From Anaerobaca lacustris (GTDB lineage: Bacteria; Planctomycetota; Phycisphaerae; Sedimentisphaerales; Anaerobacaceae): a stretch of 64,000 nt of DNA. The stretch is from assembly GCF_030012215.1 (NCBI RefSeq), contig NZ_JASCXX010000011.1:1-64000 (forward strand), given 5' to 3'. The translations under genes were made by a program, and so were the position numbers. How positions within the stretch are numbered: position 1 is the stretch's first letter; every line of letters begins with the position of its first letter. The notes beneath the pieces are model-generated. The model was given only the letters and a program-made list of their open reading frames with translations, had not been told where the DNA came from and did not search any database. Below are positions 7,078 to 31,156 of the stretch, one piece after another.

Positions 7078-8384
7078 TGACAAGCATTTCCCTGATGGAA
7101 CAATCGCTTCCGCTCGAACGTCAACGCGCGAAATTCATTAGGGCGTAACTTGCCGGGCGCGCCACTTAAGATCTTATAGGTGAAGCAGTTAAAGAAGTTC
7201 CGACTTGGTACTATGGGCCTCGAAGGGTAGAACATGAAGGCCAAACAAGGATGTTCACCCTGACAGGAGGCCCGAAGATGATTATGGCACAGGAGCAGCG
7301 ACTCCGAGGGACAGTCACCTATTTTGGGGGCGTTTCGGGGCCATTCCGACCTGCGCTTATGGCTGCTTCTCGCTGCTGGCTGTCGCGGCGGCCGGCGGGC
7401 TCTCGGCGGACCCGGCGAATCGCAGGCCGTGCGTCGCGTCGGGCCGGGGGCTTGGCGAAGAGAGAAGAATGGCGAGCGGGGACGCTCGCCCTATGCGCCG
7501 GCCAGGGACAGGGATCTGATGGGGACGTACCCTCGTTTCAGGCCAGCCTGTGGTGAAGCCAGTTGTCCGGCGGGCCCTTTCCGCCCCATGCAGACTTCGA
7601 GAGCGACATTCATCTGTCCTGTTCGTGTCTCGTCGCGTTGTCGCGTTGTTGCGGGTTTTCGGTTTGGCACGTCTCTTGGTCCTCGGTGCACGCCGGGGCG
7701 GTTCTGCGGCCGGGGGTCGGTGGGGGCAGTATCGGCGAAGGATGGAGGGAGGGCAAGGGAAAAAAGCCGTATCTCGAATCTCGTGTCTCGAATCTCGTAA
7801 ACGGGCAGATGCGTAGATGGGGGCACCTCCGGCCAATCACCTACAGCCTGCGGCCTCCCGTCTCCAGCCTGTGTCGCTCATATCTCGGGCTGCGGCAGGC
7901 TGGAGGCTGGAGGCTATAGGCTGGAGGGCGCAGCATCCGTGCATCTGCGCTTCACGCTTGACACTCGCGACTTCACACTCGATCCCGTTCGGCATGGGCT
8001 GAAGCCCATCCTACGGCGCTCGGGTTCCGGGAGGCGGGAGGCGGGAGGCTGGAGGCCCCCCTGCGCGTCTGCGCTTCTGCGCGCCGACGGGGGCCGAGGG
8101 AGGGGCGGCGGGTCTTGGCGGGTGGCTGTCAAGTTGGCGTGTGCGGGGGGCGGGGGGCTGCCGGAATTGGCACGGGTAACAGGGGGCTGTGGCGTTTGGG
8201 CAGGCGGCGAGGGGATTTGAATCAGACGTAACCATCACAACGACAAACACTTACTACGCGTCCGGTAAATTGCCGCCGGGCGGGGCGGGGCCTTGGTATA
8301 TCGTTTGCACGATAGGTGTTGTTTACGCGGCATGTATGGCCTGAAAACGTTTATGACGCATGCAGATTAAGGAGGCACGCAATT
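7078..8384. other. 1.3 kb repeat-rich intergenic region
   Basis: No convincing gene is visible. The stretch contains a hairpin at 7471-7490, TATCTCGAATCTCG-type units near 7768-7800, reiterated 'ggctggaggct'/'cctacagcctg' strings near 7840-7925 and 8030-8060, and a hairpin ATGGGCT-ga-AGCCCAT at 7994-8009. The distal 140 bp should contain the groEL1 promoter, but I could not identify it or a CIRCE element. Confidence 0.6.
7471..7490. repeat. palindromic repeat GGCGAGCG-ggga-CGCTCGCC
   Basis: Perfect 8 bp stem with a 4 nt loop. The reverse complement of these 20 bases occurs exactly at 24069-24088, and the identity extends 3 bp further on the 'tag' side. Confidence 0.8.
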
Positions 8385-26776: not shown

Positions 26777-26978
26777 TGCCGTGCTCCATGCAAAAATGAT
26801 GGCTCTCACACCGGGATCGTCCGATCCCCTTATCCAGATAGACGCCCGTCGGCCGATTTTCTAACACACAAAACCGGAAATTCTCTGCGCCTCAGGCCCC
26901 GACCGCAGAAACGTCCGCCGCGGCACAGGTAGTGAGCCGTGCGATGGGTGACGGGTGTGACTCGGCAGCAATGGGCCG

Positions 26979-27007
26979 TTGACAGGGCCGACGGCGAAGC
27001 GTAGGAT
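26979..27007 (+). promoter_or_regulatory. promoter of ileS
   Basis: A perfect TTGACA (26979-26984) and TAGGAT (27002-27007) are separated by 17 bp, 35 bp upstream of the ileS ATG. Confidence 0.65.
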
Positions 27008-27042
27008 GTGGGATTCGTTTTTCGAGCTTAAGGACAATCACG

Positions 27043-29904
27043 ATGGCTGACGAGAACAAGACGAATTACCGCGACACGCTGAACCTGCCGCAGACGAGCT
27101 TTGCGATGAAGGCCAATCTCGTGCAGCGCGAGCCCCAGATGCGCAAGCGCTGGGCCCAGGAGAACATCTATACGCAGATTCGCGAGGCCCGGCTGGGGGC
27201 CCCGCTGTATATCCTGCACGACGGCCCGCCCTATGCCAACGGCGATATCCACATGGGCCACGTCATCAACAAGGTCCTCAAGGATTTCGTCGTCAAGTAC
27301 AGAACGATGACGGGCTTCGACGCCCCGTACATCCCCGGCTGGGACTGCCACGGATTGCCCATCGAGGCCAAGGTGATGACCGAACTGGGCGAGAAGGTCC
27401 GGCAGATGAGCAAGACCGAGGTCCGCCGGGACTGCATGAAGTACGCCGGCAAGTACGTCAAACTCCAGGGCCGGCAGTTCCAGGATCTGGGCGTCTTCGG
27501 CGATTTCGAGAACCCCTACCTGACGTTCAAACCCCAGTACGAGGCGGGCATCCTCGAAGTCTTCGCCATGTTGGTGGAGAAGGGCCTGGTCTATCGCCAG
27601 CTCAAGCCCATCCACTGGTCCGTCGGCTGTGAGACGGCGCTGGCGGAGGCCGAGCTGGAATACAAAGACATCGCCTCGCCCAGCATCTTCGTCAACTTCA
27701 GTGCGACCGAGGAAACGACTGCCCGGCTGATCGAACTGGGTCTGGTCACGAGCGAGCAGGCCAAAGACGCCGAGGTCGCCCTGATGATCTGGACGACCAC
27801 GCCCTGGACGCTGGCGGCCAACCTGGCGGTGGCGGTCCATCCCCACCTCGAATACGTCAGCCTCTCCTATGAGAAGGACGGACGCAAGTGCGTCTCGATC
27901 GTCGCGGCCGATCGCATCGAGGCGGTTGTCGCGGCGGGCGCGCTGACCGAAGGCCAGTACACCATCAGCGAGAAGAAGGTCAAAGGCAGCGAACTCGAAG
28001 GGCTCCGCTATCGGCATCCGTTCATCGAGACCAATCCGACCGACAAGGACGCCTACATGGTGATCCTCGCCGAATACGTGACCACCGAGGACGGCACGGG
28101 CCTCGTGCATACCGCGCCAGGCCACGGCCAGGAGGATTATGTCTCCGGCCAACGGTACAACCTGGCGATCTATTCGCCCGTCCAGGACGACGGCTCTTAC
28201 GACGAGACCGTCCCCGACTGGCTGCGCGGCGAGAACGTGCTGACCGTGGACAAACTGGTCAACGAGCGCCTGGCCCAATCGGGCAGGCTCTTCGCCCATC
28301 GCGAAATCGTACACAGCTACCCCCACTGCTGGCGGAGCAAGGGCCCGGTGATCTTCCGTGCGACCGAGCAGTGGTTCGTGGGCGTGGACAAGGAGCTGCC
28401 CGAGACCGGCCGCAACCTCCGCGCGATGGCGATGGACGCCGTCGAGAAGGTCCGCTGGATCCCGGCGTGGGGCCAGAAGCGGATCGCGGGCATGCTCGAA
28501 TCGCGGCCCGACTGGTGCATCAGCCGCCAGCGAAGCTGGGGTCTGCCGATCCCGGTCTTCGTCATGCCCGATGGGCAAACACTGCTGACAAAAGAGTCGG
28601 TGATGGCCGTGGCCGCGCACGTCGGCCAACGCGGCTCCAATAGCTGGTTCACCGATTCGCCCCGCGAGATCCTGGGCGACGATTTCGCACTGCCGGAAGG
28701 CTTCGACCTCGACCAACTCCGCAAGGAAGAGAACATCTTCGACGTGTGGTTCGAGTCGGGCTGTAGCTGGTACAGTGTGGCAGCCGCGGCCGGCTGGTCG
28801 GTACCGGTTGATCTCTATCTCGAAGGGTCCGATCAGCATCGCGGCTGGTTCCAGCTTTCGCTGCTGCCGGCCCTGGGCGCCACGGGCAAGCCCCCGTTCA
28901 AGAGCGTCCTGACGCACGGCTTCACCGTCGACGAGAAGGGCATGAAGCAGTCCAAGTCGCTGGGCAACTACGTCAACGCACAGGACGAGATCGCCAAGTA
29001 CGGCTCCGACATCCTGAGGTTGTGGGTCGCCAGCGTCAACTACCAGGAGGACGTGCGCTGCAACGACGAGCTGATCGGCCGGACGCAGGACGCCTATCGC
29101 AAGATCCGCAACACGCTGCGTTACCTGCTCGGCAACATCGACGGCTTCGAGCCGGCCCTCGACGCGATCAAATACGACCGCATGTTCGAGATCGACAAGT
29201 GGGCGATGTGCCAGTTGCACAAGCTGATCGCCGATGTCACCGAATCCTACGAGAACTTCGTGTTTCACCGTGCCTTCTCGCTGCTGTACAACTTCTGCAC
29301 GGTCGAGATGAGCAGCGTCTACATGGACGTGCTCAAGGACCGGATGTACTGCGACGCCTACGACGGCCTGAGCCGCCGCAGCGGCCAGACCGTGATGTAC
29401 GAGATCCTCAGCGCGCTCGTGCGGATGCTGGCGCCGATCCTGGCGCACACAGCCGAAGAGGCGTGGGAGGCGATGCCGTTCAAACCCCAGGACTGCGCCA
29501 GCGTGCATCTGGCGAATATGCCGAAGGTCGATGCCGCGATTGACTACGCCGGTCAACAGGCCAAATGGCAGAAGATCATGACGCTGCGGGACGAGGTCCT
29601 GCGCGCGCTCGAAGGGCTCCGCCAGGACAAGACCATCGCCAGCAACCAGGAGGCGACGGTGACGATGCGATGCACCGACGAAGACGCAGCAGCGATCGAG
29701 GCCTTCGGCGTCGAGGCGTTCGCGGCCCTGTGCATCGTCAGCGAGGTGATGCTCGAACGATCCGCCGAAACGACCACCGTCGTCGCCAGCAAGAGCCCGC
29801 ACGCCAAGTGCCAGCGCTGCTGGAACTACTGGCCCAGCGTCGGCGCCGACGCCGCCCGTCCCGATCTCTGCCAACGCTGTGCGACGGTCGTCGCTTCCGC
29901 GTAG
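27043..29904 (+). CDS. ileS: isoleucyl-tRNA synthetase
   Basis: This is a full-length class I synthetase of 953 residues that charges tRNA-Ile in the cytoplasm. It has the HIGH signature as HMGH (residues 70-73 in YANGDIHMGHVINK), the editing domain (MIWTTTPWTLAANLA), the KMSKS loop as GMKQSKSLGN and a C-terminal zinc ribbon (CQRCWNYWP, LCQRCATVV). The ATG at 27043 follows AAGGA. The last 52 bp of the gene are duplicated about 600 bp downstream beyond a four-helix-bundle gene, with four differences that are all synonymous. This suggests that the end of the gene was rebuilt by an insertion. Confidence 0.97.
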   Translation: MADENKTNYRDTLNLPQTSFAMKANLVQREPQMRKRWAQENIYTQIREARLGAPLYILHDGPPYANGDIHMGHVINKVLKDFVVKYRTMTGFDAPYIPGWDCHGLPIEAKVMTELGEKVRQMSKTEVRRDCMKYAGKYVKLQGRQFQDLGVFGDFENPYLTFKPQYEAGILEVFAMLVEKGLVYRQLKPIHWSVGCETALAEAELEYKDIASPSIFVNFSATEETTARLIELGLVTSEQAKDAEVALMIWTTTPWTLAANLAVAVHPHLEYVSLSYEKDGRKCVSIVAADRIEAVVAAGALTEGQYTISEKKVKGSELEGLRYRHPFIETNPTDKDAYMVILAEYVTTEDGTGLVHTAPGHGQEDYVSGQRYNLAIYSPVQDDGSYDETVPDWLRGENVLTVDKLVNERLAQSGRLFAHREIVHSYPHCWRSKGPVIFRATEQWFVGVDKELPETGRNLRAMAMDAVEKVRWIPAWGQKRIAGMLESRPDWCISRQRSWGLPIPVFVMPDGQTLLTKESVMAVAAHVGQRGSNSWFTDSPREILGDDFALPEGFDLDQLRKEENIFDVWFESGCSWYSVAAAAGWSVPVDLYLEGSDQHRGWFQLSLLPALGATGKPPFKSVLTHGFTVDEKGMKQSKSLGNYVNAQDEIAKYGSDILRLWVASVNYQEDVRCNDELIGRTQDAYRKIRNTLRYLLGNIDGFEPALDAIKYDRMFEIDKWAMCQLHKLIADVTESYENFVFHRAFSLLYNFCTVEMSSVYMDVLKDRMYCDAYDGLSRRSGQTVMYEILSALVRMLAPILAHTAEEAWEAMPFKPQDCASVHLANMPKVDAAIDYAGQQAKWQKIMTLRDEVLRALEGLRQDKTIASNQEATVTMRCTDEDAAAIEAFGVEAFAALCIVSEVMLERSAETTTVVASKSPHAKCQRCWNYWPSVGADAARPDLCQRCATVVASA

Positions 29905-29908
29905 GCTG
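29853..29908. repeat. ileS 3' end, direct repeat copy A
   Basis: 56 bp covering the last 17 codons, the stop and 4 bases beyond. It matches 30455-30510 with 4 mismatches. Confidence 0.9.
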
Positions 29909-29922
29909 GAGATCGCAGGCTG

Positions 29923-29940
29923 CAGGCTGTAGACTGGAGG
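29923..29940. repeat. inverted repeat, left arm of the cassette
   Basis: CAGGCTGTAGACTGGAGG pairs with the reverse complement of 30405-30422 at 16 of 18 positions. Similar ggctg-gagg strings occur near 7840-7925. Confidence 0.65.
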
Positions 29941-29946
29941 GGGATG

Positions 29947-30303
29947 CTATCGCTTACGCAGGGCACGGAGCAGGCCGTTCACGACCTTTGAGAGTTCGGT
30001 GCTCAATCCGCGAAGCGACCCGTAGTCCTGTGGGTGCAAATATCCGAGCCGGGAAGCAAGGGACAGTTGATACTCCACCTCTCGCGCTGAGCCGTAGGCG
30101 ATGTCCAGGAAGCGAAGGTAGTCGGACTGCGAATGGCGTGCGCAGCCCTCGACGATGTTGGAAGCAACCGAAACCGCCGCACGCCTCAACTGCGCCGTCA
30201 GGCCAAACACTTCCTCTTTGGGGAATGCCTTCGTGGCCTTGTAGACACAGAGAGCCAATTGATCCGCCAGTTCAAACGCCCGCAATTTCGTGTGATCGCG
30301 CAT
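29947..30303 (-). CDS. four-helix-bundle protein (23S rRNA IVP/Avd-like family)
   Basis: This 118-residue all-helical protein has the family pattern KLRAFELADQLALCVYKATKAFP, then EVFGLTAQLRRAAVSVASNIVEGCAR and a third helix YLRFLDIAYGSAREVEYQLSLASRLGY. The family comprises proteins encoded in 23S rRNA intervening sequences and free-standing homologues, and is related to the Avd accessory protein of diversity-generating retroelements; they are thought to bind nucleic acid. The start chosen is ATG at 30303, eight bases after GGAGG; a GTG at 30309 lies two codons upstream. It is the only gene between the two ileS 3'-end copies. Confidence 0.88.
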   Translation of the reverse strand: MRDHTKLRAFELADQLALCVYKATKAFPKEEVFGLTAQLRRAAVSVASNIVEGCARHSQSDYLRFLDIAYGSAREVEYQLSLASRLGYLHPQDYGSLRGLSTELSKVVNGLLRALRKR

Positions 30304-30404
30304 TTTCACTCCCTCCGCCCCCCAGAGCCATCAATCAGGCAGAACGAACACCCTTGCCGCTCCCATACCACGGCGTGAATACCAAAAAGCCCTCCCCAAG
30401 CTCA

Positions 30405-30422
30405 CCTCCGGCCTACAGCCTG
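30405..30422. repeat. inverted repeat, right arm of the cassette
   Basis: CCTCCGGCCTACAGCCTG is the inverted partner of 29923-29940. Confidence 0.65.
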
Positions 30423-30454
30423 TCTCCGGCAGCCCGCCCGCCGATGCACACCCC

Positions 30455-30510
30455 CGCCCGTCCCGATCTCTGCCAGCGCTGCGCGACCGTCGTCGCTTCC
30501 GCATAGGCTG
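30455..30510. repeat. displaced ileS 3' end, direct repeat copy B
   Basis: In the ileS frame it still encodes RPDLCQRCATVVASA and the stop. All four differences from copy A are at synonymous third codon positions. No start codon or remaining gene body precedes it, so it is a gene fragment. Confidence 0.9.
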
Positions 30511-30521
30511 CTGGCGCTGTA

Positions 30522-30938
30522 TCAGTTCCGCGTCGGACGGTACGCGCTCAGTCTTTCCCAGAACTGGCGCGGCGAGAGGATTTCTACCTTATCGCAGTGG
30601 CCGAGGGCCAGGAGTTCCGCGTCGCCGGTGACCAGAACATCGGCCTCGGCGGCAACGGCAGCGGCGAGAATCGGGAGATCCTCCTTGTCTCGGAGCTTGA
30701 TCTTCGGGAGTTTGGCGGGCTTGGCCAGCGTGCTGTCCTGTCGCACGAGTTCGATGTAATCCGCTACGAGAAGGCGAGGGAACCCGAACTTCGATTGCAG
30801 GACGCGTCGAAGCTCATCGAGCACCTGTTTCGATACGATGGATTGGTGCTTCGCGAAGACCTCCCGCACGACGTCGGCGCACAGCCCACGGGTCGCGACC
30901 GCACTGGCCAGAACATTCGTGTCGAGAAACACCTTCAT
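30522..30938 (-). CDS. PIN-domain toxin, second TA pair
   Basis: This 138-residue protein of the 'putative toxin-antitoxin system toxin component, PIN family' begins MKVFLDTNVLASAVATRG, with the first catalytic Asp at residue 6. Conserved acidic positions follow in VLDELRRVL, DKEDLPILAAAV and VLVTGDAELL. It likely cleaves RNA. Its ATG overlaps the stop of the antitoxin by 4 bp (ATGA). It is a different PIN subfamily from the VapC at 400-795, so the two systems are not recent duplicates. Its stop lies 11 bp from the displaced ileS end. Confidence 0.9.
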   Translation of the reverse strand: MKVFLDTNVLASAVATRGLCADVVREVFAKHQSIVSKQVLDELRRVLQSKFGFPRLLVADYIELVRQDSTLAKPAKLPKIKLRDKEDLPILAAAVAAEADVLVTGDAELLALGHCDKVEILSPRQFWERLSAYRPTRN

Positions 30939-31156
30939 GAGATGTCGACAAAGACGTCCTCATCGGTCAGGTAGCCCCTCGCCTCGGCGAACGGCATTGC
31001 CCTGCGCCGCAGAGCGTCGAACTGACTGATGCGCAACTGCCGGCGCAGCGCCTCTCTGGCGATCTCGCTTCGGTTCTTACCCGATTGACGGCTCGCTTTG
31101 GTCAGCAGGTCGTCCAGGTTCTTGTCCAGTCGAATTGTCAGCGTTCCGGTCTTCAT
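30935..31156 (-). CDS. ribbon-helix-helix antitoxin, second TA pair
   Basis: The 73-residue antitoxin has a clear ribbon-helix-helix N-terminus (MKTGTLTIRLDKNLDDLLTKASRQSGKNRSEIAREALRRQL) and an acidic C-terminal tail (YLTDEDVFVDIS) for toxin binding. It is coupled to the PIN toxin downstream. There is no Shine-Dalgarno. The -10 box of an excellent promoter ends 7 bp before the ATG, so the transcript is probably leaderless. A TTACA-t-TGTAA dyad overlapping that -10 box is a likely operator for autorepression. Confidence 0.9.
   Translation of the reverse strand: MKTGTLTIRLDKNLDDLLTKASRQSGKNRSEIAREALRRQLRISQFDALRRRAMPFAEARGYLTDEDVFVDIS

Follow-up and report, generated by a model that had tools for sequence, protein, structure and literature searches.

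The window analysed here, 64,000 nucleotides of Anaerobaca lacustris DNA (contig NZ_JASCXX010000011.1, positions 1 to 64,000), contains, downstream of the isoleucine--tRNA ligase gene ileS, a small unit in which one gene of the IVP (four-helix-bundle) family stands between two inverted arrays of 7-bp repeats (heptads), followed by a second copy of the ileS 3' end. We consider it probable that positions 29901-30422 are a heptad-armed IVP element of a widespread mobile family, and that the second ileS end (copy B, the first being copy A) is a scar of recombination with a related lineage. Comparison across IVP loci demonstrates inverted heptad arms that are specific to each element, arms that follow the protein and not the site, and insertion of arms and gene together at gene junctions.

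The IVP gene of the window (29947..30309, reverse strand) encodes a protein of 120 aa that matches PF05635 at 118.8 bits against a cut-off of 33.8 (E = 1.5e-34) and TIGR02436 at 117.9 against 24 (E = 2.2e-34), its closest relative of solved structure being XCC0516 (2gsc; 5.1e-26). A first-pass annotation, made from the sequence alone, had predicted such a gene here together with an 18 bp imperfect inverted repeat, and both predictions hold: the repeat lies at 29923-29940 and 30405-30422, is 89% complementary and is composed of 7-bp units, GGCTGNA, a composition that the annotation had not noted. The left arm (29901..29940, forward strand) begins over the ileS stop codon, and the right arm (30405..30422, reverse strand), located by the inverted-repeat search, is inverted relative to the left and pairs with it in the predicted RNA fold. 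Open reading frames (ORFs) and profile searches revealed no transposase or recombinase between the arms, only the IVP gene; the same is true of the interval between copies A and B, as the first-pass annotation had stated, so that the site-specific recombinase of a gene-restoring integrative element is missing there. The GGCTGNA unit was found at ten further places in this genome, whilst a reversed-pattern control gave no match. Three neighbouring GGCTGNA arrays, one of them inverted, occupy window positions 7840-8056, where no IVP gene was found.

To place this element in context we surveyed 148 IVP genes from the window's GTDB family; these were the strongest among the matches listed and the sample is therefore not random, and two further matches in the window's genome that fall under the Pfam cut-off (L038 and L039) were left out. 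Removal of identical genes and of genes without full flanks (148 to 132 to 131) gave 131 genes from 59 genomes for flank and arm counts. Period-7 arrays, taken at a score of at least 13, were present in the upstream flank of 46/131 genes, in the downstream flank of 50/131 and on either side of 73/131, compared with 9/204 intergenic-centred windows and 0/58 flanks of HepT genes. At the arm-match cut (score at least 15), one arm repeats the other in inverted orientation in 49.6% of the 131 genes; when each site was represented by one element, 29/54 family elements and 11/13 plasmid elements were armed, against 4/200 shuffled pairs. Inverted arms were absent from all 29 HepT loci (30 less one dropped for absent flanks), and on the strength of this negative control we rejected the idea that heptads accompany small multi-copy genes in general. 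Arms of different elements seldom match, either within a genome (1.7% of 302 pairs) or between genomes (1.3% of 396 pairs).

The 85 clearly armed elements have a median arm length of 30 bp; period 7 fits best in 73 of them and period 8 in eight. The arm starts between -10 and +20 bp from the stop codon of the upstream gene in 54/78 cases and overlaps the gene end in 33/78, these distances relying on mechanical ORFs and having no control set. The earlier proposal of a small gene-end element is therefore partly upheld, in that the ends are inverted and often start at gene ends, although the carrying or restoring of a gene end is not supported. A rationale for period 7 in terms of stop codons was rejected, since stops in all frames occur in 17.7% of arms and in 17.1% of column-permuted arms. 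Grouping of 160 IVP elements by flank similarity gave 69 site clusters, the largest of 11; some gene junctions are occupied repeatedly or have been occupied for very long.

The association of the arms with the protein emerges from pairs of elements at unrelated sites. Below 60% protein identity, where the pairs comprised a random 1,500 plus every plasmid-planctomycete pair, arms matched in 8/1007 (30-40%), 17/1634 (40-50%) and 10/442 (50-60%); at higher identity they matched in 78/396 (60-70%), 68/158 (70-80%) and 14/20 (>80%). With one element per site the corresponding values, in order of rising identity, were 1.1%, 1.1%, 2.3%, 22.8% (13/57) and 50.0% (11/22 at 70% identity or above). This rise with protein identity indicates that arms and gene travel together, each protein lineage being linked to its heptad. 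The relationship extends across phyla: 16 of 22 IVP-bearing plasmid records were taken, of which 14 are cyanobacterial, one is from Gemmatirosa and one from Azospirillum, and arms matched in 11/21 plasmid-planctomycete pairs of at least 70% identity. We infer from these sequence comparisons that an IVP protein may read its own heptad, recognising its arms as DNA or as hairpin RNA.

Inverted arms scoring at least 15 flank 14/16 of the plasmid IVP genes, the exceptions being L355 (14.5) and L359 (8.0). Several of these genes stand within clusters, namely between cas6 and cas4, between cas10 and a cmr3-type gene, and between genes for subunits of ribonucleotide reductase; the units of L348, L355 and L357, on cyanobacterial plasmids, are those flanked by cas genes. 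Closely related cyanobacterial plasmids, some carrying the unit and some lacking it, were compared so that insertion sites could be read. Between L352 and L364, with flanks 97-99% identical, AAAGTAATTAAC becomes AAAGTAAT, the unit and GTAATTAAC, a 5-bp duplication. In L366 and L367, compared with L354 and L368-L370, TTCTA stands on both sides, a less certain reading because the copy on the right is at the same time a continuation of the arm; L353 has TTCTG on the right. L354 compared with L353 shows ATG on both sides (3 bp). Target sequence was lost at two sites, 16 bp in L361 (compared with L371 and L372) and 11 bp in L350 (compared with L373 and L374), where the unit provides the stop codon of the preceding gene. 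L348 and L375 are too diverged for such a reading, and the heptads of L375 are of a different type; in L376 the IVP gene of L357 is absent and some 270 bp of unrelated sequence take its place; at the L352 site, L365 retains a decayed IVP gene together with the heptads. Units that have arms but no IVP gene occur at L368:656-794 and L369:590-896, a second unit being nested in the first in L369; these are derivatives resembling miniature inverted-repeat transposable elements (MITEs).

A number of observations weigh against this interpretation. About half of the IVP genes show no arm match at score 15. The arm score of the window element itself, 13.0, lies below the cut, and its RNA fold, although the arms pair, is no better than that of shuffles (z 0.20), whereas the L353 element beats its shuffles with z -3.82. 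The plasmid insertions have no single duplication length, with 5 bp at two sites, 3 bp at one and, at two more, a loss of 11-16 bp. A sample of 0.99 Mb selected without regard to IVP genes contains 36 period-7 arrays, making this the commonest short-period array (0-4 at other periods), and just 2/36 have a complementary partner nearby, implying that arrays also arise or persist otherwise; solo arrays outside IVP elements are either remains of elements or a separate matter. Together with published heptameric repeats that have no IVP gene (PMC4679880, PMC4692102, in the portions consulted), such arrays favour an explanation in which heptads are intergenic repeats of the ordinary kind, prone to slippage, and IVP genes just happen to lie among them. 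We regard this as distinctly unlikely, because it leaves unexplained the inverted flanks, the mismatch of arms within one genome and the way in which arm match tracks protein identity; with the HepT control included, it is partly refuted.

Heptad-armed IVP elements stand next to ribosomal intervening sequences as a kind. The available text of PMC4990558 describes the 23S rRNA intervening sequence of Coxiella burnetii as having complementary ends and tandem GACAGAT heptamers before its S23p ORF, the first of these heptamers containing an RNase III site, and terms it a selfish element of unclear origin. As far as that text goes, it shares with the window and plasmid elements the protein family, stem-forming ends and heptamers upstream of the ORF; it differs in its position inside rRNA, the elements of the window and the plasmids being found between protein-coding genes. 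The window element follows ileS, is not inside a 23S rRNA gene, and has complementary ends capable of forming a stem. By analogy with the ribosomal case, the arms might pair in the transcript and be cut there, and insertion between genes would be tolerated since continuity of the message is unneeded at such positions.

A word search of open papers found IVP genes joined with heptad arms only in the Coxiella paper, which, in the text seen, describes heptamers at a single element and does not link heptad and protein. Heptameric repeats are otherwise described as TAACTGA in Beggiatoaceae (PMC4679880), GGGAATC in Xanthomonas and GGGGA(C/T)T in Nostoc (PMC4692102); the accessible portions of these papers report the same period, intergenic position and high copy number, with inverted pairs in Xanthomonas (70 in Xcc), and mention no IVP or S23 gene. 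In the literature covered by that search we found neither the link between arms and protein nor the spread at gene junctions. Insertion sequences and MITEs offer a further parallel, through their inverted ends, filled and empty sites (seen here among related plasmids and at ileS, which is filled in genome G003 and without the element in G004), some 5-bp target duplications and gene-less armed units. The IVP elements are nevertheless unlike them in lacking a recognised transposase, in having ends made of repeat arrays that differ within one genome, and in target duplications that vary among the sites read.

The Avd protein of diversity-generating retroelements is a homologous four-helix bundle, and by analogy IVP elements might be retroelements relying on a reverse transcriptase supplied in trans, an idea that we consider unlikely. 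It draws on the variable duplications and losses at insertion sites and on weak Avd profile matches, the window protein scoring 26.2 bits against a cut-off of 80 for NF033474 and 22.4 against 40 for bAvd. The comparison was limited to a count of reverse transcriptases, and it does not favour the idea: 51/89 family genomes have no RVT_1 match, including 14/27 with at least five IVP genes (incomplete genomes weaken this point), and RVT_1 and IVP counts are uncorrelated (rho -0.06). A Y1 transposase acting in trans was also rejected as a candidate; Y1 and IVP counts correlate weakly (rho 0.27, p 0.01), but genomes G053 (seven IVP genes) and G024 (five) have neither a Y1 nor an RVT_1 match.

We turn now to the duplicated ileS end. 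The ileS gene (27043..29904, forward strand; TIGR00392, E = 2.2e-272) includes copy A as its 3' end and has orthologues in all five relatives, G001-G005, of a six-genome genus set in which the window's genome is G000; these are apparently draft or metagenome assemblies, that of G000 comprising 117 contigs. The direct repeat, found by repeat search and examined by genus comparison, is 57 nt long: copy A (29852..29908, forward strand) consists of the final 53 bp of ileS plus GCTG, and copy B (30454..30510, forward strand), now outside any gene, follows at a spacing of 602 with 93% identity. The four mismatches (CAA/CAG, TGT/TGC, ACG/ACC, GCG/GCA) are all synonymous, which bears out the first-pass description. 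Since 26.8% of single changes in the final 17 ileS codons are synonymous, four of four would arise by chance with a probability of 0.005 if all were random, a figure that is weaker if some changes hit A while A was under selection. No second ileS end was found downstream of any of 75 other ileS loci (80 less five truncated ones, some with <100 bp of downstream sequence), three of which gave matches of 12-27 nt only.

The relatives show that the IVP element was at this site before the duplication. Downstream of ileS, G001 too carries this IVP gene (84% identical), its contig stopping just past the gene, and aligns continuously with window positions 26976-30438 (91%); G003 has a shortened IVP unit (50% identical) and then another gene, which we take to be glycosyltransferase-like; and G002 has the beginning of an IVP unit, a remnant, and then different DNA. 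The presence of the unit in G001 and G003 and of a remnant in G002 makes it old at the site and older than the duplication, so that the first-pass proposal of an element imported with an ileS end, which restored the gene at insertion, is largely refuted. As to the proposed check for empty sites, in G004 ileS runs directly to the G003-type neighbour with no IVP element; G001 and G003 are filled, and the element is not a new arrival here.

That an IVP cassette carries the end of its target gene and restores that gene on insertion is, in our view, barely credible. It would account for the identity of the peptides encoded by A and B, with synonymous differences only, and IVP elements do sit at gene ends; against it stand the element's presence at the site in relatives and the 148-gene survey, in which the expected class of IVP genes flanked by duplicated gene ends had no member beyond the window, so that no gene-end copy carried by an IVP element was seen at more than one site. 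Plasmid insertions readable base by base had no gene-end copy of the 57-bp type either. Three other surveyed genes had direct repeats scoring >30 across the gene: that of L290 is an 8-bp array, that of L231 is the second start of an IVP gene, and that of L279 is intergenic, with no ORF of at least 60 aa ending there. The L279 repeats (L279:1437-2019) are of about 47 bp, surround the IVP gene and end in GTTAAC or GCTAAC. Separately, direct repeats of about 180 bp surround the weak, below-cut-off IVP match L039 (G000:C48:15304-18528).

The source of B is indicated by G005, in which the ileS end runs directly into sequence aligning to window positions 30454-30553 (L004:148-50, 91%); this continuity with the sequence to the right of B means that B belongs to its right-hand neighbour. 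Over the last 53 bp, A has one difference to G005, three to G001 and ten to G002, and B has three, three and six, respectively. At all four differing sites the B base occurs in G001, G002 or G003, and A equals G005 at three. Other changes would be expected in a copy released so long ago from selection; B is free of them relative to the states of those species, and is read on this basis as the ileS end of a related lineage. The first-pass view that a simple local duplication does not account for the copies is supported in so far as the bases at the four sites make B no simple late copy of A; that the IVP element brought an ileS end is not supported. On sequence grounds the preferred reading of B, which lies beside a toxin-antitoxin pair, is a scar left by recombination with another lineage: a related-lineage segment, in which ileS led directly into the PIN gene described below, would have become attached on the right-hand side of the element already present, and 53 bp of the donor ileS end would remain from it.

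A somewhat unlikely alternative is that B is an old local duplication, older than the separation from G001 or from G002, and that G005 lost its IVP element by recombination between the copies. The older-looking bases of B at the four sites fit this history, as does the G005 junction, which, save for three bases, is that expected of deletion between the repeats; moreover, the G001 contig stops where B would be. A non-coding copy would, however, have had to remain without amino-acid change whilst four-fold sites of ileS shifted by 9% (G005), 14% (G001) and 27% (G002) relative to the window, and the DNA downstream of ileS in G002 and G003 contains no B. Very unlikely, in our judgement, is a join of A and B during assembly from two co-occurring strains. 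The assembly is in 117 pieces, as stated, and B does resemble a relative's ileS end; the intervening 30423-30453 is unlike ileS or the element, however, and would thus offer no shared word to mislead the assembler. A point to be set against the recombination scar itself is that the G001 and G005 contigs end just beyond the decisive place, and the order of events at ileS consequently depends on few bases.

The remaining features of the region lie to the right of the element. Positions 30423..30453 form the junction between element and copy B, the G001 alignment stopping at 30438 within it. Positions 30511..30553 correspond to the sequence directly after the ileS end in G005 and, in the window, to the end of the gene for a PIN-domain toxin (30522..30938, reverse strand; PF13470, 6.1e-14; TIGR00305). 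Copy B abuts this gene and its partner, a ribbon-helix-helix (RHH) antitoxin gene (30935..31156, reverse strand; PF01402, 7.1e-08), a gene pair absent from the first-pass description, and an aldo-keto reductase gene lies beyond. Of the six genus genomes only G000 has the PIN protein, and the reductase gene is at a different place in G005, indicating that the ileS neighbourhood has been rearranged. Similarity to the genus relatives is bounded at window positions 26976 and 31212, on both sides of the ileS region, and the ileS alignments with G001, G002 and G005 all begin at 26976. A GC-rich palindromic repeat (core GGGGCGAC..GTCGCCCC) is found at the G005 contig end after ileS (L004, G005:C55) and beside the reductase gene (L079, near 12300); it is perhaps an element of the repetitive extragenic palindromic (REP) type that broke the assembly.

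More broadly, we tentatively propose, as a view that we hold at somewhat less than even confidence, that minimal mobile elements have IVP proteins as their specificity factors, with every lineage of the protein recognising a heptad of its own; that arms and gene move from site to site and from phylum to phylum with no recognised transposase; and that ribosomal intervening sequences and many dispersed heptad repeats are members or remains of this group. A gene coupled to its heptad would join three puzzles: the function of PF05635 proteins, the origin of intervening sequences and the source of heptameric repeats. Structures of PF05635 proteins have been solved but their function is given as not known in the text seen of PMC4990558; ribosomal intervening sequences are without an agreed origin, and for the heptameric repeats of several bacterial groups there is little idea of the source. 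A figure legend in PMC10910872 lists the 23S rRNA IVP among new associations of CRISPR adaptation modules. Insertion of IVP units between cas genes might explain that association, and heptad-armed IVP elements may in this way account for the IVP genes that stand between cas genes.

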